A stretch of DNA of 64,000 bases from Polytrichum commune. Taxonomy: Eukaryota > Streptophyta > Polytrichopsida > Polytrichales > Polytrichaceae. The notes under the pieces are model-generated. The model was not told the origin of the DNA. It worked only from the letters and a program-made list of their open reading frames with translations, and searched no databases. The DNA lies in the NCBI GenBank assembly GCA_950295325.1, contig OX485805.1, positions 25,595,501 to 25,659,500 on the forward strand. Reading direction: 5' to 3'. The position numbers were made by a program, and so were the translations under genes. Positions within the stretch are counted from its first letter, which is position 1. The number at the start of each line of letters is the position of its first letter. This document shows, piece after piece, positions 3,866 through 62,774 of this stretch.

Positions 3866-6449
3866 TATAGATAGTACATATCTTGCACAGATGTATGCCA
3901 CCTTCATAAATAAAATGGAGGGATAGAAAGATGTAACACGTACACTGGAACTCCAGCAACTGGAGCTGATGCTGGGGGTGGGGTAGCAGCTGGTGCTACA
4001 GCTCTGATATACAAGATTATGAATCAGAAAGTTAACTCTCATATCCTTACTGAATAAGGATAAAAACTCAAAGAGCTCCTAAGTGCAGCAAACTGGTCTC
4101 AGATTTAATCATCCCTTGGGTCTGAAGCAATAGACAGGACAATGGCAAGACAACAGGAATGAACCAAACTGTTTTTGAAACATCTACTTCCATTTTGCAG
4201 GTCAAACAAAGTAGGCACATACGGAGTAGGAGTAGGAGTAGGAGTAAGAGCAGGAGCAGGAGCAGGGCTAGGTGCGGCTGGTGGAGCAGCAACAACTGCA
4301 GGCGCCTGAAAGTATGTACAAAAAGCTTAGTACAATGCGTAGTACAATGCGTAGAATAATGCCTCTTAAACACCCACTGCTTTGTACTAGTGCATCATAG
4401 AAATCTTCACATTGCAACACAAAGCTTGATTATTAGAAAGTTCTATAAACTTGGAAGACAAGTTTACCGGGATAGATCCAGATGATGAGGGGGCTGCGCC
4501 AGATGGCGTGGCAGCTGCTGCCGGCGCTGGTGCTGGCGCTGCTTTTGTCTGAGTGGATAAGCCAGACACAAATGAACAAGGGAAGGTGGAAGACAAACGC
4601 TTGACAATAATTTGCAATTACTTGAACCTATGACCAAGATACATAACGATAGTGAACATAACACCAATTGCTTATTACAAGTGAACAAAACTCAGAACTA
4701 CCCTTGAATTCTTTGAGATGCAATACAAATACCAGGGATTGTAATGTAGTACCTTTGTCAACATAACGACAAGAAACCCATTTTCTGAAACCTTATTATC
4801 AGTCATTGTGGTGTCATCCTTGAGAACTTTCCCTTGATGAATAAGTAATTGTTGATGACAAGGAAATGCCTCCTTTCCTTGAGATTCTTCTATCTGTTGT
4901 TTCACAGAGATAACCTGCAGATCCAAAATGCATAGACAAAGTCTTAACTGTCAGCCCAAAAATGTACATGTCTATTCTTCATGAAAACAGTACTTACAGA
5001 TCAAGGTAACCAGGAAAGAAGAATTGGAGATCATAATTTCATAGATTGTAGAGTTACAGCATCAGTCAGCACCTACACGACAAACAAACTTATAAGAGAG
5101 ACTCTAATGATAAAGGTCAGGGTTGAGAAACCCTAGACTCGAGGCCTTCAAGTCACTGGCGACCCAAAACAACCAGAACTTGAGAGTCACAGCGATTACA
5201 ACTATGCAAATTTGCTAATCAGGATTCGGAACAGGGGCAGATAAGAGTATTTGATACGTGGAAGTGTGAAATTGACCTAGTCCACAACCTCCTACACAGC
5301 ATCAAGGAACAGAGATGCGAGTAACATTCTTAAATACTAGTACCTTGGAGATAGCCAAACCCACCCTATGTTCTACCTGAGTACAAGAGATCACTATCTA
5401 GCAATAAGTACCTATTGAATTTTTCTATCAAGACCTGCTTCATCTTTGTTGTAATCATCTAGCTCGAAACTATTCTTACTTATATGACAAAGTAGAGAGA
5501 CTAACCTAAAAACCAAAACAACGAGAGAGACAGTAAAAAAACTAAGCGGTGATTGAAGATTTATGGTTTCCCAAACAAGTCAAACCTACAGCAGTCGCAT
5601 CATGTTGTTTCTGACCAGGCAGAATATGCAGTCAGCACCCAAGGGCAGCTCCAAACATTATGAGGAACAAAAATTTAAGGCTACTAGCGTATATATATTA
5701 GTATCGAAATGGCTAACCCTAGCACGCAGAAATGGGAAAATTAATTTCTCAAGGACAAAAATCGAAATGAAACTGTTCGTCTCCGACAACTAAGCGAGAT
5801 TTTTTTCTTGTTCTAGAATCCAAGAAATGAAGGTGATACCTGCTCGTTCGTGTCCTAAACTTGGACGTCAGGCATAAAAGTCCACCTTAAGCAACTACTG
5901 AAGGCAACAGAAGGAGAACAACAGACTCGTGCCAACAGATTCGACTGAATCCGCCAAGTAATTATGCCCTCCGCAGTTAGAATTGGGATATACAACAAGA
6001 CAGGGACATGTTGTCGGTGACATGTACTCCAGGAACCTAAGGACTGATAACATAATATCGTCGTCACTAACAAGAACACCAGAGCTGGCTTGGTCACAAG
6101 GGAAGGAGTGCATTCGCGATGATGCACGAGATGAGGACATTTTCAAGAACTACTACTCAGAGGCAACGCGTCACGGACAATTCTGACACAGCTGAAGCAG
6201 CCAAGACACAAGCCATTTGAACACAACCAAGAGACGAGCCATTTGAGCTGCGATTAGGTCGAATTTTCTTTTTAAGCTCGGCAAGAGGTAGGCAGGGAGA
6301 CAGAAAAAGACAGAGACAGGGACAGAAAGCGAGAGAGAGAGAGAGAGAAAAAGAGCGAAAGGGAGAGAAAGGGAGGCACGTACAGTGTCATCGGGCTGGA
6401 CATTGAGATCAAAGTGGTTGCCCTTGAGAGTCTTCACCGAAATCTTCAT
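1365..6449 (-). CDS. RAD23: RAD23 ubiquitin receptor / NER factor, 12 exons
   Basis: Shuttle protein that carries ubiquitinated substrates to the 26S proteasome and partners XPC/RAD4 in nucleotide excision repair (family knowledge). Exons read on the minus strand: 6449-6384, 4914-4753, 4548-4468, 4305-4223, 4003-3944, 3529-3352, 3014-2862, 2756-2688, 2320-2273, 2075-1963, 1772-1694, 1484-1365. All junctions are GT-AG and keep frame, giving 1212 bp and 403 residues, normal for the family. Domains: N-terminal ubiquitin-like domain (about 1-76, starting [10 protein letters not shown]), an Ala/Pro/Thr-rich linker, UBA1 (about 160-205), an XPC-binding domain (about 285-335, with [20 protein letters not shown]) and C-terminal UBA2 (about 352-400, with [15 protein letters not shown]). 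The start is the Met that opens the UBL. The 1.47-kb first intron (4915-6383) holds no gene. All four domains look intact. Confidence 0.95.
3803..3863. repeat. compound microsatellite (CTAT)n(GT)n(AT)n
   Basis: Simple repeat of about 60 bp inside the RAD23 intron between the exons ending at 3944 and starting at 3529. The low-complexity open frame across it on the minus strand is an artefact of the repeat. Confidence 0.95.
6330..6347. repeat. (GA)n microsatellite in RAD23 intron 1
   Basis: A GA/CT-rich tract surrounds it (about 6300-6375), directly next to the first RAD23 splice donor at 6383. It is a pyrimidine-rich stretch on the coding strand just inside the intron. Confidence 0.9.
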
Positions 6450-53543: not shown

Positions 53544-54092
53544 GGGGTTGTTTACATCATGGATCATGAGCTCGTTCCAAGGCCATGTAAAAATTGTGAT
53601 TGGTTGTTGAATTCGTCTTGGGACCACTTCGGTTTACATCAAGGAAAACAAAAAATGTAAGAGTGAGCATGGAGTTCGAGGTCCCCACAAGACATGTTTT
53701 AAGGCCTACATTATCCACTGACATGGTCCAACGGATTTTGCGGTGGGAGAGGAAAAAGAGGTGTTCTAGTAGAAAAAGGCAAAGGCCCATGACAGAGAAA
53801 TGTTGTTCTAATAAAAATTTAATGATTTTTTTTCTTAATGGGGAAGAGAAGATGAAGACAAGAGAATGATCAAACTTGAATATTTAAAAAATAAAAAATG
53901 TTTTTTTGGGTATATAATAAAAAAAAGCAACACATTCACTACTTGGTGCATGATCATTCCTCTTGGTCCACATTCGGTTTACACCTAGCGAGGGGCCCAA
54001 AGGCTTTGTGAATTGCTCTTTGAAGAAATCAGACCATGGACAAAGGCCATCTTCCATGGTCCAACTTCATGGTCCATGGTGTAAACCGGCCC
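53544..54092. mobile_element. TTA-target MITE family D, 549 bp
   Basis: Left end GGGGTTGTTTACATCATGGA, inverted right end GGGCCGGTTTACACCATGGA, with TTA at 53541-53543 and 54093-54095. The ends continue into matching TCATGA/CCATGA blocks. PIF/Harbinger-like by target and terminal GGG. Short open frames inside are not recognised as transposase. Confidence 0.7.
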
Positions 54093-54368
54093 TTAGTCCC
54101 AAACCACGAGTTTACGAGAATGAACACAAAGTTACCCAAGTTTTTTCAATTATTAAATTATCATACACAAAGAGTGGTGTCGGGTTATAAAAATTGCCTT
54201 TCTAGCTTGTCCTACTAGGATGGTGTAAACCGGCCCTTAGTCCCAAACCATGAGTTTACGAGAATGAACACAAAGTTACCCAAGTTTTTTCAATTATTAA
54301 ATTATCATACACAAAGAGTGGTGTCGGGTTATAAAAATTGCCTTTCTAGCTTGTCCTACTAGGATGGG
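54081..54368 (+). repeat. 144-bp tandem duplication starting in the MITE terminus
   Basis: Copy 1 is 54081-54224 and copy 2 is 54225-54368. Both start GTAAACCGGCCCTTAGTCCC, run through TTTCAATTATTAAATTATCA and end at CTACTAGGATGG. Only about two differences were seen (for example ACCACGAG versus ACCATGAG), so the duplication is recent. Its left boundary lies 12 bp inside the right end of the family D MITE, so a second, isolated MITE end was created. Confidence 0.9.
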
Positions 54369-55877
54369 TGGGCCAAGCTAGCCTTGTATAAGTTGATATG
54401 AGATTTAGGATAGTGGGTCCCATGCGCATAGCCTATTTTAGATCCTAAAATTTTCTCAAATTTGACAAATGAAAAAAAGAAGTCCCAAAAACTCACCCAG
54501 CTTTCAAAATTGGCTCCAATACACAACAAGCAAACGACATATCAATAGAAAGTCATTCCGAGTAAGGACCAAACCTACGGTTTTGTCCTTCTTTGAGGGA
54601 ACTTTATGGATAACTCTATTGGTTACCCTTAAACACCAAATATCATGTTATGTCATATCGGGGTAGCAATCGATTGCTAAGGGCCTACTTTCCTTATTGC
54701 CATAGGTTGTGCTTATACTTGTGGAAACCTTCAAATATATCATTTGGATTGCTTTGCATGGAGAGGTAAGAGTGATTCAAAAATGAACTCCATTGTAGTG
54801 ACTATGGAGTATGGCAATAAGTTGTGGTCTCTATGTGATTACTTTGTTGAGTGACTTGCTAGTAGAGCATAACAACATGTCATTCACTTTATACTTCACT
54901 CCCGAGGAACTCTTCAAAAAAGAGGCCCTCATGTCCAAATGTTAGTTGTCAAAATGATGTTTCTTTGAGTAGATAGGCATTTTTATAGAAGACATTTGTG
55001 CAATTTTTTGAATGGCTTGGACTTTGTAATGTGTCAAGATTCATAGTTTTGTTTGATTCAATTTATATTCGATATTAAGTGCATATTACAACACAATGGA
55101 ATGAAAGTAGACACATAAACATTTAGCGTCATTAGGGATACCATATTACAAATCTAAAACAAATCATTCTTTTAAAAAAAGTATTATATCGTGCATAGAT
55201 AATCATTTAAAGTTGTTGTTTGTTTAGGCATCACACACCTACATGTGTTTTGTGCACGTAAAAGAGTTTCAACGAATAGCTTAACCCTTTATTGTCATGG
55301 GGGTGCATTCCAACGAACTTGGAGATTTCATACCGCCCTTGATGTTAGGGACATTTGAGACCACCATTGTCACAATTTGTATTGATTTGCCACTTACATG
55401 TACAAGTCAACTTCACAATAAAGGGGTGGGGACAAAGATGACATCATTCCAACCAGATTTGAGAAGATCCAATGGTCAAACATGTTGGGGCAACTAGGAA
55501 ATTTTGTTCAAAATTTGGATAATGTGATGGATGTGGTCATTGGGTTGAAACATATACACACATTTAATTTTGGTAAACATATACATGAGAATTTGAATTT
55601 TCAAATTTGGAGCTCGTATGCATCTTCTAGGGCAATCAACATTCCTTGACCAAATGATGGGTGTCTCTCATATTGAACTTGGAGCTTCTTTGGTTAAGGG
55701 TGTTGCAAATTGCTGAAAGATAGTTGGTTGTTACAATGAGTAACAACAACATGCAAGAAAACTTGGCTCCTTGCTCAAGTTGCAAGGAATTGTTTAAAAA
55801 TTTTGAGCTTTAAAATGCTTACATGTGGCGCCAATTTATTTGAAGAGATGGGCCAAATTGCATTGATGCGACTTGTA
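54369..55877. other. intergenic region, no gene seen
   Basis: AT-rich sequence up to the left end of the Pack-type transposon; its TA target base pair is 55876-55877. Confidence 0.55.
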
Positions 55878-55903
55878 TACCGTACGTGATAGGCCAGTTC
55901 GAC
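55878..55903 (+). repeat. left terminal inverted repeat of Pack-pogo element
   Basis: 26 bp, 25 of which match the inverted right end at 62030-62055. Preceded by TA. Confidence 0.95.
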
Positions 55904-55911
55904 AGTAGGGT

Positions 55912-56013
55912 GTCGAATAATTAATTTAATTTTCATTTTTTACATTCGACGGATGAAACAATATTTTCATCAAAATTCGACGGATGTAGGTAGTAATTTC
56001 TCATTCATTCGAC
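55912..56013 (+). promoter_or_regulatory. left subterminal TTCGAC array
   Basis: After the TTCGAC inside the terminal repeat (55898-55903), the hexamer recurs inverted at 55912-55917 and direct at 55945-55950, 55976-55981 and 56008-56013, spaced about 30 bp apart. The right side has a matching cluster. Repeated subterminal hexamers are usually transposase binding sites; that role is inferred here. Confidence 0.6.
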
Positions 56014-56218
56014 TGTTACTAACAAACTGTAACGGAATTACACGTTTCATGATCATAATTGGTTTGTTACAAAAATCTACTCAAGAAATTCTAAACCTTT
56101 GAGAGCATTTCTTGTATTTGCTTAGGGTTTTAAACACAAACTCTCTATTGTAGTGTTTCTCCTCCTTTTGCTGTAGGAAGTCATAGCTTCATAGTCTTGT
56201 GTATGCCAAGTAGGAGCA

Positions 56219-56401
56219 ATGGCGCTTGGTGAAAAGAAGCAAACTATATTGACTTCTATGTTTACTAAGATCTCTCATGAGGAGAGATAGTGTATTGTTG
56301 CAAAAGAGTTTGATCAATTAAAAGCCATAGCTGCAGCTGAGAGGGAGATTCAAGGAGAAATTGTAGAGAAACGCCAAGTTGGACGTCCAAAGAAAAACAC
56401 C
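56219..56401 (+). pseudogene. 5' extension of the transposase frame, interrupted by one TAG
   Basis: An upstream ATG at 56219 is in frame with the transposase and the 61 codons between are open except for a TAG at 56288-56290. The extension encodes a Gln-x-x-Leu motif with trailing Met-Phe (QTILTSMF) resembling a PCNA-interacting box, and an AT-hook-like GRPKK just before the downstream Met. Both make sense as part of a pogo-type transposase N terminus. The TAG could be a CAG-to-TAG change; it would force use of the Met at 56402. Confidence 0.65.
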
Positions 56402-58063
56402 ATGCTTATATGCCCAAGCACAATCAAACAAGAGGAGGAGGAGCATGATGCAAGGAGGAAGAAATCTCAACATTTACAAAAGAAGAGGCATTCATACAAC
56501 ATGTGGTTCACCACGGACCTCTTTCCACCAATTCAAGAGGCAGTTAAGAGGTATGGAAGGACACAAGCTGCAATTCACTACTTGGAAATTGCTTTTAGAA
56601 CACCTGGAGGTCCTAGTCCTTACAAAAAACTAGGAAGATCAAGCTTGTATGACTGGTTTGATAAAAAAGGAGAATTACAAGCTAATTACAGGGAAGCAGC
56701 AAACCTAGGACATCACCCAAAGAAACAAGATCAAAATTTGCCAATCCTAGAGAATTATCCCCATGTTCGTGATCAACTTGTATCCAAGTTGCAAAAAATG
56801 AGAGAAGCTGGACAAACTCTCCTCATTTCTATTGTACAATCTATTCTTAGAGGAATGTTTGAGGCCCTTGCTCCTCAACTTCTTGATGATAGACCTGGAG
56901 GTTTCACAGTGTCAAGACAATGGACAAATGAATTCATGAAAGTTTACATGAATTGGACAATTAGAAAAGGTACTACTGCTGCAAGTAAATTACCATTAGA
57001 GTGGATGGAGCAAGGACTTAACATGAATTACAGGGTAGCTTACCTTGCTAAAGTTTATGGCATCCCATCATCTCTTGTGGTCAATTCAGACCAAACGGGT
57101 ATCCATTTGGTACCTGCAGCAGGGGGCAAAATATGGGATGCAAAAGGTACAAAAGATGTCAAAATTTTAGGCATGGAAGACAAAAGGCAGATCACATGTG
57201 TTATGTCCTCTAGTGCTAGTGGAGAGCTTTTGCCAATTCAAGCAATATTCACAGGGAAAACAATAAGATGCTTACCAAAACAAAGTGATGAAAAAATTAA
57301 ATGCATAGAGGCAGGATGGCATTTTACCTTTTCTCCAAATCATTGGAGTACACTCCATACCTCTCAACAATTTGTTGAAGAGATTTTAGAGCCCTATTTG
57401 GCTTCCAAGATTGCCATGCACAATCTCCCAAAAGACCAGAAGTTAATATGGTTGATTGACTCATGGTCTGTGCACAAAAGTTCAGAATTTTTGAATTGGA
57501 TTAAGTCCAAGCATGCAAATATCCTAGTGATATTTGTTCCTGCCAATTGTACTTCTAAGCTACAGCCAGCTGATGTCATTTTGCAAAGGCCATTTAAGCA
57601 TGCATTTAAGTTAGAATTTCACAATTGGACAGCAACAGAGGTGAAATTACAAATTGAAGCTAATGGAGAACTTGAAGTTGATCTAAGCATGAGTAACTTG
57701 AAACCACGCATCCCTGCATGGTTGTTCTCAGCTTGGGCACAAGTCAAAAAGATGGAAGCTATGATACAGAAAGGGTGGCAGAAATGTGGGTTTGAGAGAG
57801 CTTTCTTACCTACATTTCAATTGAAGGCAATGGAGGTGAATGCTGAATCTCCTCTCTTTACTGTAAACCATGACTTGGAGGAGAATGTTGAAGAAGAAGA
57901 TGTTTCTGATCCAACCATACCACTCATGAATGTGGTTGAGGAATGCTTGGATGCAAATATTGAAGCACCAACATCATCATTTGTACATGGAGCAACAACA
58001 AAGAAGAGAAAGAGTACATCTAAGAAGATTGACAAGAGAGGTAAACAAAAAACCTTAACCTAG
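56402..58063 (+). CDS. pogo/Tigger-like DDE-superfamily transposase
   Basis: 553 residues, cut-and-paste transposase of the Tc1/mariner superfamily (DDE_1 type). The N-terminal part is basic, followed by a helix-turn-helix-like DNA-binding region (about 45-90, with KRYGRTQAAIHYLE and GRSSLYDWFDKKG). The catalytic domain has D230 (VVNSDQTGIHLVP), D353 (IWLIDSWSVHKS) and D391 (CTSKLQPADVI), the last in the LQPxD context typical of pogo/Tigger/jerky proteins; spacing between the last two is 37 residues. The C terminus is acidic, then Lys-rich. All three catalytic acids are present and there is no internal stop or frameshift. The true start may be 56219, lost to a TAG. The leading 180 bp of the element would be the promoter and 5' UTR. 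Confidence 0.88.
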   Translation: MLICPSTIKQEEEEHDARRKKSQHLQKKRHSYNMWFTTDLFPPIQEAVKRYGRTQAAIHYLEIAFRTPGGPSPYKKLGRSSLYDWFDKKGELQANYREAANLGHHPKKQDQNLPILENYPHVRDQLVSKLQKMREAGQTLLISIVQSILRGMFEALAPQLLDDRPGGFTVSRQWTNEFMKVYMNWTIRKGTTAASKLPLEWMEQGLNMNYRVAYLAKVYGIPSSLVVNSDQTGIHLVPAAGGKIWDAKGTKDVKILGMEDKRQITCVMSSSASGELLPIQAIFTGKTIRCLPKQSDEKIKCIEAGWHFTFSPNHWSTLHTSQQFVEEILEPYLASKIAMHNLPKDQKLIWLIDSWSVHKSSEFLNWIKSKHANILVIFVPANCTSKLQPADVILQRPFKHAFKLEFHNWTATEVKLQIEANGELEVDLSMSNLKPRIPAWLFSAWAQVKKMEAMIQKGWQKCGFERAFLPTFQLKAMEVNAESPLFTVNHDLEENVEEEDVSDPTIPLMNVVEECLDANIEAPTSSFVHGATTKKRKSTSKKIDKRGKQKTLT

Positions 58064-59435
58064 TGAGTTTTAAGGTAGACATACTTCATAAAATAGTTCA
58101 TTTAGATGTACTATCAAGGTCTAAAAATGGATTGATGGACCATGGAGTTATGTAAATGTGACAAGTAATGAAACATACCTTTGGAGTTGATGTCTGCCAT
58201 GCTTATTGTGAATGTGCTACTCATTTTACTAGTCTGAATGAAGGCACTAGGTGAACAAATTGTGCAGCAATTTAGCAATGTAGCAAAGGTTAGATACAAG
58301 ACCAAATTTATACCTGCAATACAAAGGGTTTGGCATCTAAATCAAAAATCAGCCAGATGGGTAAAAGGAGACCTGATTGAAGATCCCCTTACTAAGATGT
58401 GGGGCTGCATTGTTGCGAACTCACACATTGCAAGAAGAACAAAACTTCCTTCTACACCATCATTTTGCAAGACAGAACTCACACAAGCATCGCATCCTCT
58501 GTTGTGGCTGCGATAGGACCACATGACTCCATAGACCATCCCACACAAAACAACCTGCATGCCAGAACATAGAAACAATCAATTTCAGCGAATCCCCAGA
58601 TTATTTTTTGTTAGTTCACCTTGGATTCTGCTACTACTACAACAATTATAAGTTGCATTATGTAAGACAAACTCATATTGCATCTATCACAATGTGCAAA
58701 TTTGCAAGAGGGCACCCAACCACCTGAAGTTTAATCTTCTATGAACTCTTGCAAGCCTATACAACAGTCTCAGTAGATTTACAATGGCCTGAAAATTACA
58801 TATTGGAGGGAAAACATCAATAAGGGGTTGAGCTAAGTGATCACAGATTCAGGTGCCAAGCTAAATCATCACGTGCATGTACGACAATGATTCATTCCTT
58901 GTATCTCAAGTTTTGGCCATTACATAAACTTCATGATGTAACATGCCCAAGAGATAGTGACAGTATACATGCCTTAAGTTCCATATTTCCATTAGTCTCT
59001 CCATTGCGCCTTCAACTAATTGGCTTTAACTTGATACACAAAACGTTGTCCTAAATCTCCAAAATTGAAGTTGAAATGGAGCAGCAAAATATTTCTTTAT
59101 CACCTCTGGGTTGTATTTCACATACAACACATAGTGCGTGTATCTTGACATGCCTTTGCACAGAGATCTGCATGTTTAGAACTTCCCTAAAGTGTTGTTC
59201 CAGAAACATTGGCTCCTCCTACTGCCATCACAGTCCAGACACAAATCATCGAGACAGCATGAAGTCATTTATCATTGACCATTCATCCTATTTTACTTGG
59301 CCACCAGATGGAATACTTGAATGCCCGGAGACATTTATGCCCCATCCTCTGAAAGATGATTAGAATTGATTCCTACATATCGTACATGCCAAAGAATACA
59401 AACAGTATGTGGAATATCCTGGATGGGAATGTGAT
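58064..59435. other. transposon interior, no gene recognised
   Basis: Between the transposase stop and the aminopeptidase fragment. A plus-strand open frame (58238-58516) has no known domain; it may be 3' UTR or another captured piece of unknown origin. Sequence just above 59000 on the minus strand could be the 3' flank that came with the aminopeptidase exons. Confidence 0.5.
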
Positions 59436-60490
59436 CTATCCAATAGCTTGTGTCTGATTACTTGAAGGTGCCCATTGTGAGGACTCCCCTACTTTTGAGA
59501 TTGGTCTTGTGTTTCTTTGCAACCATGTCCAGGCATCTCCTTTCACGAGTGGGGAAACCTGCACCATATGAATTTGACGATTGCTTAGTACAAGTGTATC
59601 CTTGAAGGCAAATGCTCTCAAGAAACAAACAAGTTGAACAAGGTGAAGCAGTGTATGCATGCAACAATCAGCTCATACCTTGTTCCAAACTTCAGAGTGG
59701 TAGTCATTGACCCATTTGATTTCATTCTCCGACATCAAATTCAGATCCAATAGACTTGTCTGCAAGCCAATAAAAACACAGGACCCATGTCCAACATTTC
59801 AACAAATCAAACTCCAGTTAGAAGTGGAAGTCCTTGGAGTATGGTATTAAAGTGTGTTACTCACAGAAAATGCTGCCTCTGATGCTCCAAACATGCATCC
59901 GCATTACTCTCTGGAGCTAATGGCTGCAAACTCTCACTGAGCCTGTGAGGTGATAAATAGGAAAATATGAGAATCTCACCTGGATGGGTACAAATGTGAG
60001 TCGCTCAAATCCAAGAAATGTAACTCCTCCAAAACGGTTTGCTGTTTCTACCTCTTTTATAATAAGCAGATTCTGCACACATACATGATAAGAATGAAAG
60101 GTCGGCAAATACTATCAAACTGCTGCTGACAACACATCCAATCTTACATGGACTGCAACAGGAGTATTAGCATGTACTAAGTAATGACATAATATTTGGT
60201 TTGATCAGTTTTCTCAATAACCTACAAGGATATCAAACATTCTACTGATGGGCACTTCAAATGATGCTTGATTTCAACCAGCCCTCAACCTCTGCATTTT
60301 AAAATCCATTTGTGCCTGCCAGAGGTCCATACCTCTATGCGGATGCCAAAAGCACGATCTTCATAGTAACCTGGTTCATTGCTGATAATCATCCCTGCTT
60401 GCAACCCTGTCATGTTGCCAAATCGCGCACTCACACTCTGGGGCCCTTCATGAACATTCAATGCCGCTCCCACTCCATGACCCGTTCATG
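59436..60490 (-). pseudogene. captured 3' part of an aminopeptidase P gene (four exons with introns)
   Basis: Minus-strand exons, in order: about 60487-60333, 60072-59980, 59759-59679, 59558-59436. They encode TGHGVGAALNVHEGPQ, NEPGYYEDRAFGIRIE, NRFGGVTFLGFERLTFVPIQ, NEIKWVNDYHSEVWNKVSP and a C-terminal WLQRNTRPIS, then TAG. This is the C-terminal pita-bread catalytic fold of cytosolic aminopeptidase P (removes an N-terminal residue before proline), including a metal-site His (in GHGVG) and a metal-site Glu (in NEPGYY). GT-AG introns of 200-300 bp remain, so capture was from genomic DNA. The N-terminal two thirds are absent, hence non-functional as an enzyme. The frame within the kept exons is intact, indicating recent capture or a donor under constraint until then. 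Confidence 0.88.
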
Positions 60491-60522
60491 CAGTGGTAAC
60501 AAGAAAAAAACGATCGTTCCAC

Positions 60523-60576
60523 GGTGTGTAATAGGTTACCCACATCACGTCCAAGTTGGAGAGAGTGAGCCATTCC
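60523..60576 (-). repeat. 54-bp duplicate of BAHD exon segment
   Basis: Identical to 61245-61298, which lies in the captured BAHD exon. Here it stands alone, just upstream (on the minus strand) of the aminopeptidase fragment, with unrelated sequence on both sides. Confidence 0.9.
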
Positions 60577-60888
60577 CTTTCCAATCTGTTCAAACATTAT
60601 AAAACATTCAGGATCTCGGGGGGCAGCAAGTATCACAAATAGTGCAAGACATCATAGTTTGCGTGGTGATAATGAGCACGATGAGCAAACGTGATGGGGT
60701 CTGACCTCAAGAGGAACGCCCCTGTAATTTCTAATCTAACAGTTCTCTAAAATTGAAGACCAATCTAACAGTGAAGACTGATCTCTACTGCAGTAAACCA
60801 TAGCAAAGTAATGTATCGACAAGCAGGTCTCAATTGCGGACAACAGTCATGCATATTTTGGATTTATTGTCAGGAAAATTGGCATACC
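60577..60888. other. transposon interior of unknown origin
   Basis: A minus-strand frame reading LAAPRDPECFIMFEQIGKG is open near 60577-60636 and could come from a fourth captured gene, but it was not recognised. The remainder next to the DXS exon is probably its native intron. Confidence 0.4.
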
Positions 60889-61052
60889 TGGTCATAGCCT
60901 TGTTGAAGAAAGGATGAATATATTGCACAAAAGGGCCGCATTCCCTCAGTTGCCAACCCAGCTGCAAAGGTCACTGCATGCTGTTCAGCGATACCGACAT
61001 CGAAGGTCCGCTCTGGGAAAAGTTTCTGGAAGTGGTTCAGTCCAGTACCACC
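60889..61052 (-). pseudogene. captured exon of 1-deoxy-D-xylulose-5-phosphate synthase (DXS)
   Basis: The minus strand encodes [20 protein letters not shown] followed by [17 protein letters not shown] and [14 protein letters not shown], ending at a splice donor (GACCAG then GTATGC). This is the transketolase-type central (pyrimidine-binding) region of DXS, first enzyme of the plastid MEP isoprenoid pathway; the Glu of IAEQH activates thiamine diphosphate. Only this one exon and part of the following intron are present. On the other side it is fused to the BAHD fragment in a different reading frame. Not functional. Confidence 0.9.
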
Positions 61053-61438
61053 TCCGTGAACACAGTTCCCGCATCGTTGCAATGCAGAATCGTCGTGGCT
61101 CTTTCATCTCCTCCATCACGCATCGCCACCCGCCCGGCCAGAGGATAGAACAACACCAAGGCGTCCGCCAAGGAGTCCTTCAGATGTTGCACGACGGAGG
61201 AGAGGGGTGACGAGATTTGGTCGGCTGTGTAGATGCAAAGCAGGGGTGTGTAATAGGTTACCCACATCACGTCCAAGTTGGAGAGAGTGAGCCATTCCTT
61301 CTCGGCTGGCGTCGCTACAGAAGGTTTGACGAAGCTTGTGGTAATGTTCTTCAACTCCTTCCCCAACAGTCGATCTTCAAATATGAGACTGCTGTCTTCG
61401 GTGCTGGCCTTATCCTGCTTCTCCACCTCGCCCTCCAT
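61053..61438 (-). pseudogene. captured 5' exon of a BAHD acyltransferase
   Basis: Begins at the Met at 61438 on the minus strand and encodes VKPSVATPAEKEWLTLSNLD, MWVTYYTPLLCIY and ADALVLFYPLAGRVAMRDGG, the N-terminal landmarks of plant BAHD enzymes (CoA-dependent acyl transfer to alcohols or amines). The catalytic HxxxD and the DFGWG motif would lie downstream and are missing: the frame runs into the DXS fragment and stops four codons later. As the fragment keeps the start codon and probably the 5' leader, a captured promoter could drive a chimeric transcript. Confidence 0.85.
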
Positions 61439-62029
61439 GCTTGCTGAGTCACTTTGTCGGGAATGCTTCCAACTTGCTCCCTCTCACAGCAGCTTCGCAC
61501 CTTCACAGCGGGCATCGATTAAGGGTTAACTTCAGCAAAAACATGGCCACTGTCTCTTTCATCAGATCCACATACATACTCACTCTCATCCGATCCCGAA
61601 GTACAGAGATTTGGACATTGAGACAATCAATCAACGTCCAGATCCACACAACAATTTCAAACAAAAAAACAGGGTCACAGGAGAAATCTCGGTGAAGAGG
61701 GTTCAGTGAAGGGTTCAGAACGGTGTCTCTCTCGCTTCCCGTTGAAGGCGTTGAGCTCTCGCTTCCTGCTGCTGCTCCTAGACCTTGATCTGACCCATTC
61801 GAGCTTGCCTTCACATGTCGACTCTCCACCTCCGCCCATGGTGATGTCGAGGAGCTCCGCAGGGGTTTCGGAAGGAAGCGGAGGCGGGGGCTAGAGAGGG
61901 CGGGGGTGAGAGAGGGCGGGAGCGGAACGGACAGATTTCGACGAGTCTGTCAACCATTTTTTCGCTTTTCGACAGCTGGGCCTTTTAATAATAATAAAAT
62001 TCGACAATTATTTAAAAATTTTAATTATC
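61439..62029. other. right interior of the transposon, likely captured 5' flank
   Basis: GC-richer DNA on the 5' side of the BAHD start; probably its leader and promoter or another captured segment, with no recognised protein. A GGAGGCGGGGGC-rich stretch (61.86-61.92 kb) resembles 23.81-23.84 kb. TTCGAC motifs occur at 61937-61942, 61968-61973 and 62000-62005, forming the right subterminal cluster. Confidence 0.5.
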
Positions 62030-62055
62030 GTCGAACTGGCCTATCACATACGGTA
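62030..62055 (-). repeat. right terminal inverted repeat of Pack-pogo element
   Basis: Inverted match to 55878-55903 with one mismatch, followed by TA at 62056-62057. Confidence 0.95.
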
Positions 62056-62057
62056 TA

Positions 62058-62774
62058 TGACAATCATTATATTCAATATCAAAAAAAATGTTTTGAAATG
62101 TTCTTACTTTCTAACCTTGCAACTTTTAATTTCAAATGGACAATGCTAATTTCCATGTGAAAAAAAGGTTGGAGCCTAATATAGGGGTTAATAACTACAA
62201 ATGGGGAAAACTATTAAACTCCTTACACCTAAACATCCAAGAGGCCGATTATGAACCTCGGGATTTCGTATAAAGGGAGTTTAAGATTACTTATGAATAT
62301 TTTAAGCTTTGTAATGTCAAAAGTTATCATATCTAAACTTAAACCCAATTATCATAGACATCGTTTCAAATGGAGCAGAATAAACATAGTTTAAAACGAA
62401 TCATAAAACATATTGAGCTCACATATGCAATCTAGACTCAAATACATACCATGTACATTCAATCACCTACATGCGGCCTGAACACGTTGTGCCCTGGCCA
62501 AAGGCCGAAGGGTTTGTGTTCAGATTACAATCCAGGATCTATAAGGCTTCGTATATGATTTCACATATGATTTCACATATGATTTCACATATGATTTCAC
62601 ATATGACTTCACTTCACTTTTGTGTTTTCAATAAGTTCCACTAAGAATGAACTCTATACCTTAAAACAAATTGAATAGTATTATTTCAACACTTGTATAC
62701 CGAGTGCACAAACAGTCACATTTCCCATGTAGAAGCACCCTTGATCCTTTAAGGGTTAGTAAAAACACGATGAT
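62058..62774. other. intergenic region, no gene seen
   Basis: AT-rich; contains the 12-bp tandem repeat at 62553-62612. Confidence 0.55.
62553..62612. repeat. 12-bp tandem repeat ATATGATTTCAC, five copies
   Basis: Four exact copies and a fifth with one change (ATATGACTTCAC). Confidence 0.95.

Follow-up and report, generated by a model that had tools for sequence, protein, structure and literature searches.

We analysed a window of 64,000 nucleotides from Polytrichum commune (GenBank assembly GCA_950295325.1, contig OX485805.1, forward-strand positions 25,595,501 to 25,659,500), which is C3:25595501-25659500 of the genome searched (G000; 408 Mb in 64 contigs, with C1 to C6 denoting contigs or chromosomes). 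Positions 55880-62053 of this window hold a 6174-bp transposon that fits the pogo superfamily and that carries, between a single pair of ends, a transposase region and fragments of at least seven host loci from three other chromosomes (C1, C2 and C6). A preliminary description, made from the letters alone, had claimed captured exons of at least three host genes within 55878-62055; that span is exactly the element plus its two flanking TA dinucleotides, and the number of donors now exceeds the claim. From left to right the parts of the element, with identities to their donors, are:

55878-55879, no strand: left TA target-site duplication (differently flanked copies have TA beyond the constant end)
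55880-55903, plus strand: left terminal inverted repeat, 24 bp (inverted-repeat search, copy comparison)
55880-58192, plus strand: left core (end and transposase); identity to 8 further aligned copies 93-99%
56219-56290, plus strand: transposase N-terminus from ATG 56219, 23 codons and then an in-frame stop at 56288-56290; broken
56291-58063, plus strand: open transposase frame, 590 codons, DDE_1, DD37D (Pfam, alignment, structure model)
58193-58334, minus strand: EF-G gene fragment in two pieces; donor C2:48469688-48469900, 96-97%
58343-58427, no strand: fragment of an unnamed locus (L017); donor C1:42615030-42615114, 94%
58429-58964, minus strand: amidase gene region in two pieces; donor C2:33374852-33375497, 98%
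58973-60522, minus strand: aminopeptidase P gene stretch including introns, in two pieces; donor C6:12179590-12181544, 98-99%
60523-60576, minus strand: BAHD piece (L013) of 54 bp, repeated at about 61245-61298 (fine alignment)
60575-61055, minus strand: DXS gene stretch in two pieces; donor C1:19006947-19007861, 97-99%
61051-61611, minus strand: 5' part of the BAHD gene, including its start codon and the leader upstream; donor C2:55342133-55342696, 99%
61625-61823, minus strand: RS-rich gene fragment; donor C2:64044197-64044654, 97.5% in one piece and 85% in another that is gapped
61863-62053, no strand: right core, common to the right ends found
62030-62053, minus strand: right terminal inverted repeat, 24 bp (inverted-repeat search, copy comparison)
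62054-62055, no strand: right TA target-site duplication (differently flanked copies have TA beyond the constant end)

The top-scoring inverted pair in the window was 55876-55903 / 62030-62057, with 27 of 28 positions matching, and comparison of copies with different flanks delimited a constant end, CCGTACGTGATAGGCCAGTTCGAC, of 24 bp (23/24 in the window). The inverted ends first reported as 26 bp with one mismatch are thus real, but their true length is 24 bp and the remainder is the TA duplication. TA lies directly outside both ends in five of the six two-ended copies (the window copy, W, and L001, L002, L003 and L004, where L001 to L010 denote the other loci of the family and L011 to L023 include donor loci), and the sixth, L005, has TA on the left and AA on the right. 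Allowing up to three mismatches, a 26-base end pattern occurred 16 times in the 408 Mb versus 0 times for the reversed control, and the left 91 bp and right 161 bp gave at least 12 and at least 10 genome matches, respectively.

Frame 56291-58063 matched Pfam DDE_1 at 2.9e-13 (50.2 bits against a cut-off of 22), and HTH_Tnp_Tc5, an N-terminal DNA-binding domain of CENP-B/HTH_Tnp_Tc5 type, scored 14.5 bits, under its cut-off of 22.2. Residues D267, D390 and D428 of the frame were invariant in a five-sequence alignment, with DD37D spacing. In an AlphaFold model (mean predicted local distance difference test score, pLDDT, 59) the strand order was that of an RNase-H-like core; a structural aligner returned Mos1, SETMAR and Sleeping Beauty as best chains (Z 8.4-9.0, where the aligner's own notes call Z 7 to 8 common) and listed retroviral integrases at Z 7.3 or below, and Foldseek with the same model gave no match at E 0.001. 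Because of the mean pLDDT of 59, only the fold class was taken from the model. The TA duplication, short ends (24 bp; type 1 ends are at most 40 bp) and DDE_1 domain with a DDxD motif fit the element to the pogo superfamily, an assignment made on these features, and they bear out the pogo/Tigger-like DDD transposase of the preliminary description. Published pogo elements outside the Fot types target TA, and the superfamily is described as 1.2-5.2 kb long (PMC7386202), a range that the 6.2-kb element exceeds because of its cargo.

The element had also been thought self-sufficient, which it does not appear to be: the frame from ATG 56219 stops after 23 codons, leaving no uninterrupted transposase from a start codon in the window. 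A sense codon stands in place of this stop in seven of the other eight copies in the alignment; in L009, two inserted bases immediately precede that position. Transposase matches of at least 75% identity numbered 14, of which 13 contain stops and the fourteenth is the window stretch downstream of the window's own stop. With its transposase interrupted, the window copy would therefore move today only with help or by way of a downstream start. Between the window copy and L001 the transposase differs by 9 synonymous, 13 replacement and 1 stop codon differences, with replacement and synonymous divergences (dN and dS) of 0.009 and 0.025, a pattern that hints weakly at past constraint.

Donor DNA accounts for 3560 of the 3670 bases (97%) between the cores (58193-61862), with eight unassigned gaps totalling 110 bases; most of this cargo matches its donors at 94-100%. 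A genome search with 58070-62030 found donor loci at 94-99% identity, one gapped piece at 83%, and weaker paralogues of DXS and aminopeptidase P at 78-85%; the cargo runs in the order EF-G (L018), L017, amidase (L012), aminopeptidase P (L011), the 54-bp BAHD piece, DXS (L014), BAHD (L013) and RS-rich (L016). Gene names rest on TIGR00484 for EF-G (8.5e-58), TIGR00204 for DXS (1.1e-39), PF02458 for the BAHD exon, the M24 domain PF00557 for an aminopeptidase P exon whose best PDB match is Xaa-Pro aminopeptidase 1, and PF01425 for the amidase donor (3.4e-12); the window donors are named from single exons, hence scores under the whole-protein NCBIfam cut-offs, and the RS-rich gene is named from composition alone. 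Profile matches on the minus strand thus confirmed the opposite-strand aminopeptidase P (M24), DXS (transketolase/DXS) and BAHD fragments reported earlier within one pair of ends, and their donors lie apart on C6, C1 and C2, so these pieces are not neighbours in the host genome. None of the 12 donor loci recovered across the family contains its left core, right core or end, and at L011, L012, L013 and L014 the gene frames extend past the captured part, which together indicate that the host loci are the sources and that transfer ran from host to element.

Ten loci were fetched for copy comparison, and the middles of W, L001, L002, L003, L004 and L006 were searched for donors (those of L007 and L009/L010, and the portion of L008 outside its overlap with L006, stood outside this search). 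Host donor loci elsewhere were recovered for all six, and five copies beyond the window carry different cargo, as the preliminary description had anticipated. Transposase-bearing copies have the left 2.2-2.4 kb in common, the right ends found share 0.2-0.35 kb, and the point of departure from the core varies from copy to copy. L001, on C5, holds a larger part of the amidase region and 1283 bp of C1:56600403-56601685 with one difference (99.9%); L002 carries C1:24273089-24275141 behind an inner left end; L003, like L005 and L024, carries C5:43758323-43760664; L006, and in part L008, carries C2:6320114-6322533; and L004 carries C3:6037031-6038600, having lost the transposase and kept about 270 bp of left core that stops before the transposase ATG. 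High-copy repeats sit inside the cargo of L006 (about 4984-5495, roughly 513 bp) and L004 (about 1961-2362, roughly 395 bp), each with more than 30 matches at 94-98% among the matches listed; the donors lack them, so they arrived after capture.

Cargo is shared at unrelated sites in three pairs of copies (W/L001, L003/L005 and L006/L008). Among their older pieces, W and L001 have the EF-G/L017 joint and the BAHD/RS-rich/right-core joints in common within unrelated flanks, and the flanks of L003/L005 and of L006/L008 gave no match in the locus alignment. Because these pairs share cargo or joints but not flanks, already loaded elements have evidently moved. L001 contains 564 bp of amidase-region sequence that are missing from the window, where the joint has one ambiguous base, and the C1:56.6 piece of L001 occupies the place of the window's remaining amidase, aminopeptidase P, DXS and part of BAHD. 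As that piece is 99.9% identical to its donor whereas most others are 97-99% identical to theirs, the simpler reading is that it is a replacement in L001; it is the youngest capture. L005 and L024/L025/L040 have a left flank in common and probably represent one duplicated insertion; on account of that flank, L005 and L024/L025 were counted as one.

Between L003 and L005 the core is 93.1% identical versus 98.3% for the cargo, which looked like an exchange of cargo between transposase cores; the probable duplicates L005 and L024/L025/L040 differ likewise (core 95.1%, cargo 98.2%), and the approximately unbiased test left a single clade unrejected for L003+L005+L040 (p 0.488) and for L006+L008 (p 0.383). 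Across the pairs L003/L005, L005/L040, L006/L008 and W/L001 divergence of the core exceeds that of the cargo about 1.8- to 4.3-fold. The commonest single-copy changes were C-to-T and G-to-A, and methylation-driven decay of the core is possible.

Cargo joints have 0-5 bp of overlap or 1-18 bp of filler, and at the C1:56.6/BAHD joint of L001 the filler is repeated locally. Intron DNA is kept in the captured stretches which, with these joints, points to capture from DNA. We think it likely that this is a pogo-type transposon lineage carrying its transposase together with a growing and changing patchwork of host fragments acquired by template switching during break repair. In this scheme, excision or a stalled fork would leave a break somewhere between the transposase and the right end, and repair by copying would jump to unrelated templates with the aid of 0-5 bp of homology or of short filler; the transposase would afterwards move the repaired, loaded element, and copies that lost their transposase during such repair, like L004, could ride on others. 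Such repair would explain the many donors, the kept introns, the internal losses, the filler and the replacement, and it carries most weight as the best mechanism for the window. Two observations weigh against it. In L002 a left end lies internally at a TA of the core, which marks nested insertion and not break repair. An empty site with a single TA, the check suggested in the preliminary description, was not found: of the 36 matches listed when the joined flanks were searched against the single assembly, none crossed the joint; each flank matched its own place in the window, and most of the remaining matches belonged to a diffuse repeat within the first ~100 bases.

Composite mobilisation, in which neighbouring or nested copies flank host DNA and move as a unit once their inner ends have decayed, is the neighbouring-insertion model proposed for Pack-TYPE elements in the Pack-Mariner report (PMC8903248). 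It fits L002, whose outer core is cut at a TA and followed by a 65-bp inner left end, 2.0 kb of C1:24273 DNA and a right end, but the window would need many rounds of it, its cargo having seven source loci on three other chromosomes as well as internal losses, the donor loci lack ends, and no inner end (up to three substitutions) appears in W, L001, L003, L004 or L006, a search in which L006's own left end also went undetected; we consider this account improbable for the lineage. Copying from spliced RNA, with the gaps within donors being introns, is suggested by five window donors that each give two pieces with the intervening stretch missing, but intron stretches are kept and none of the three filler-free gaps among the eight tested reads as GT-AG (the other five contain filler; the out-of-order L021 joint in L006 was set aside), so this very remote explanation was rejected. 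A pairing of ends from two different elements, or an assembly error behind the mosaic, is just as implausible, given that both ends belong to one family across copies and that L001 repeats the EF-G/C1:42615 and BAHD/RS-rich/right-core joints on C5 within different flanks.

The cargo is uniformly oriented. Among the 12 donor loci across the family, all 10 that could be oriented are antisense to the transposase (two-sided sign p 0.002), with L004 judged against the family's left-to-right order because its transposase is gone, and with L015 and L017 giving no gene direction. Six of the ten rest on domains above cut-off (aminopeptidase P, DXS, BAHD, amidase, EF-G and EamA; p 0.03) and four on weaker signals: long frames for L016 and L023, PUA_4 at 0.041 for L020 and a thioesterase at 0.012 for L021, whose three joined frames weakly resemble palmitoyl-protein thioesterase (Pfam 0.012, PDB 0.0088). 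Both p-values are rough because pieces within one element may be non-independent. A sister family represented by L031 (C2:17014400-17020400) has 3 antisense and 2 sense among five small host matches in its 3' part, two oriented by long frame alone and one by a sub-cut-off Sec5 match. A universal antisense rule is thereby rejected, and the bias is a feature of the window's family and not of the wider group; it constitutes a specific, testable anomaly.

The right core of L002, L003, L005, L006 and L010 includes a leader and a first-exon-like stretch that matches C1:47898515-47898567 at 83% over 53 bp, and we read it as an older capture. We take this first exon to be that of a cyclophilin, a tentative name whose match is non-significant (E 0.61); PDB searches with this exon and with single exons of L021 and L020 returned no matches. 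Conceivably, though we regard it as unlikely, the right end is an exon trap, in which the old captured cyclophilin-like leader and first exon run up to a GT splice donor, retention is limited to captured genes that read away from the right end, and chimeric transcripts of host exons on one strand run opposite to the transposase.

The closest published relatives each have part of this architecture. Pack-Mariner elements of rice and maize hold host gene fragments inside Tc1/mariner-type ends, and fused elements have been described; in that account they are non-autonomous by definition and were found with Stowaway-type ends (PMC8903248), unlike the copies here, which keep a 1.8-kb transposase frame and, in the window, seven donors. 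Judged as Pack-TYPE elements, W and L001 have captured fragments of coding genes between transposon ends but also carry 1.77 kb of transposase, where the class has no transposase match; L004, which has none, would qualify. Grapevine Hatvine-6 (hAT) and Pifvine-3 (PIF) are likewise reported with otherwise variable, host-derived sequence; Hatvine-6 copies share transposase and ends, and the same report notes one captured piece, in opposite orientation, downstream of a transposase, but both elements belong to other superfamilies, and that study recovered no Tc1-Mariner element from grapevine (PMC2528002). Among animal Pack-TIRs, 115 of 370 are TcMariner, including Pack-Tigger1 (Tigger being of the pogo family), with joint microhomology (median homology 2 bp) and template switching proposed; nearly all are described as single-copy (four multicopy, 1.4%), whereas the elements here are multi-donor and occur at more than one site (PMC8277862). 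The Lemi family (PMC7386202) is a plant pogo group with TA targets, short ends and variable DDxD spacing, and the Selaginella clade (PMC7325037) is plant pogo too, but the descriptions consulted mention no cargo; DD37D falls within the DD29-42D range given for Lemi (PMC7386202), a range that is not diagnostic of membership.

The distribution of pogo in land plants has been described as restricted, and among the open-access titles and abstract openings listed in our searches none describes a pogo family that has several donors and bears a transposase. Elements with a transposase and elements of Tc1/mariner type are each known to capture genes, and the two are combined here in a pogo-type family, so the unusual vehicle of the preliminary description stands as to that combination but not as to its parts, cargo-bearing hAT and PIF elements (PMC2528002) and Tc1/mariner capture (PMC8277862, PMC8903248) having been published. 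Capture here did not require loss of the transposase region, whereas Pack-TYPE work defines its elements as transposase-free. With donors extant and captures of graded age, from 83% for the oldest piece read as a capture to 99.9% for the youngest, one can trace stepwise how a transposase-bearing pogo-type family acquired host fragments, replaced them and mobilised them again. Judged by its copies, the family captures and relocates host-gene pieces time and again.

Another sister family, L026/L029/L030, has ends TACCCTACCTCAACGGCAGGTCCGGC and uninterrupted transposases (613 aa in L026 and L029). Four matches with equal scores fall inside 80 kb close to an end of C2 (668428, 725645, 739706 and 745805), L029 and L030 are 99.8% identical across 3.28 kb, and the family was probably active recently. 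The 3' part of L031 (3500-4700) is repeated at 88-93% in the other copies of its family, and short segments of it match HSP20, PrmA and Sec5-like loci as well as two further loci; short relatives of its final ~134 bp occur in many places. Outside the element, the window contains a 144-bp unit twice in tandem (99%) at 54076-54367 and a 12-bp unit repeated five times at 62553-62612.

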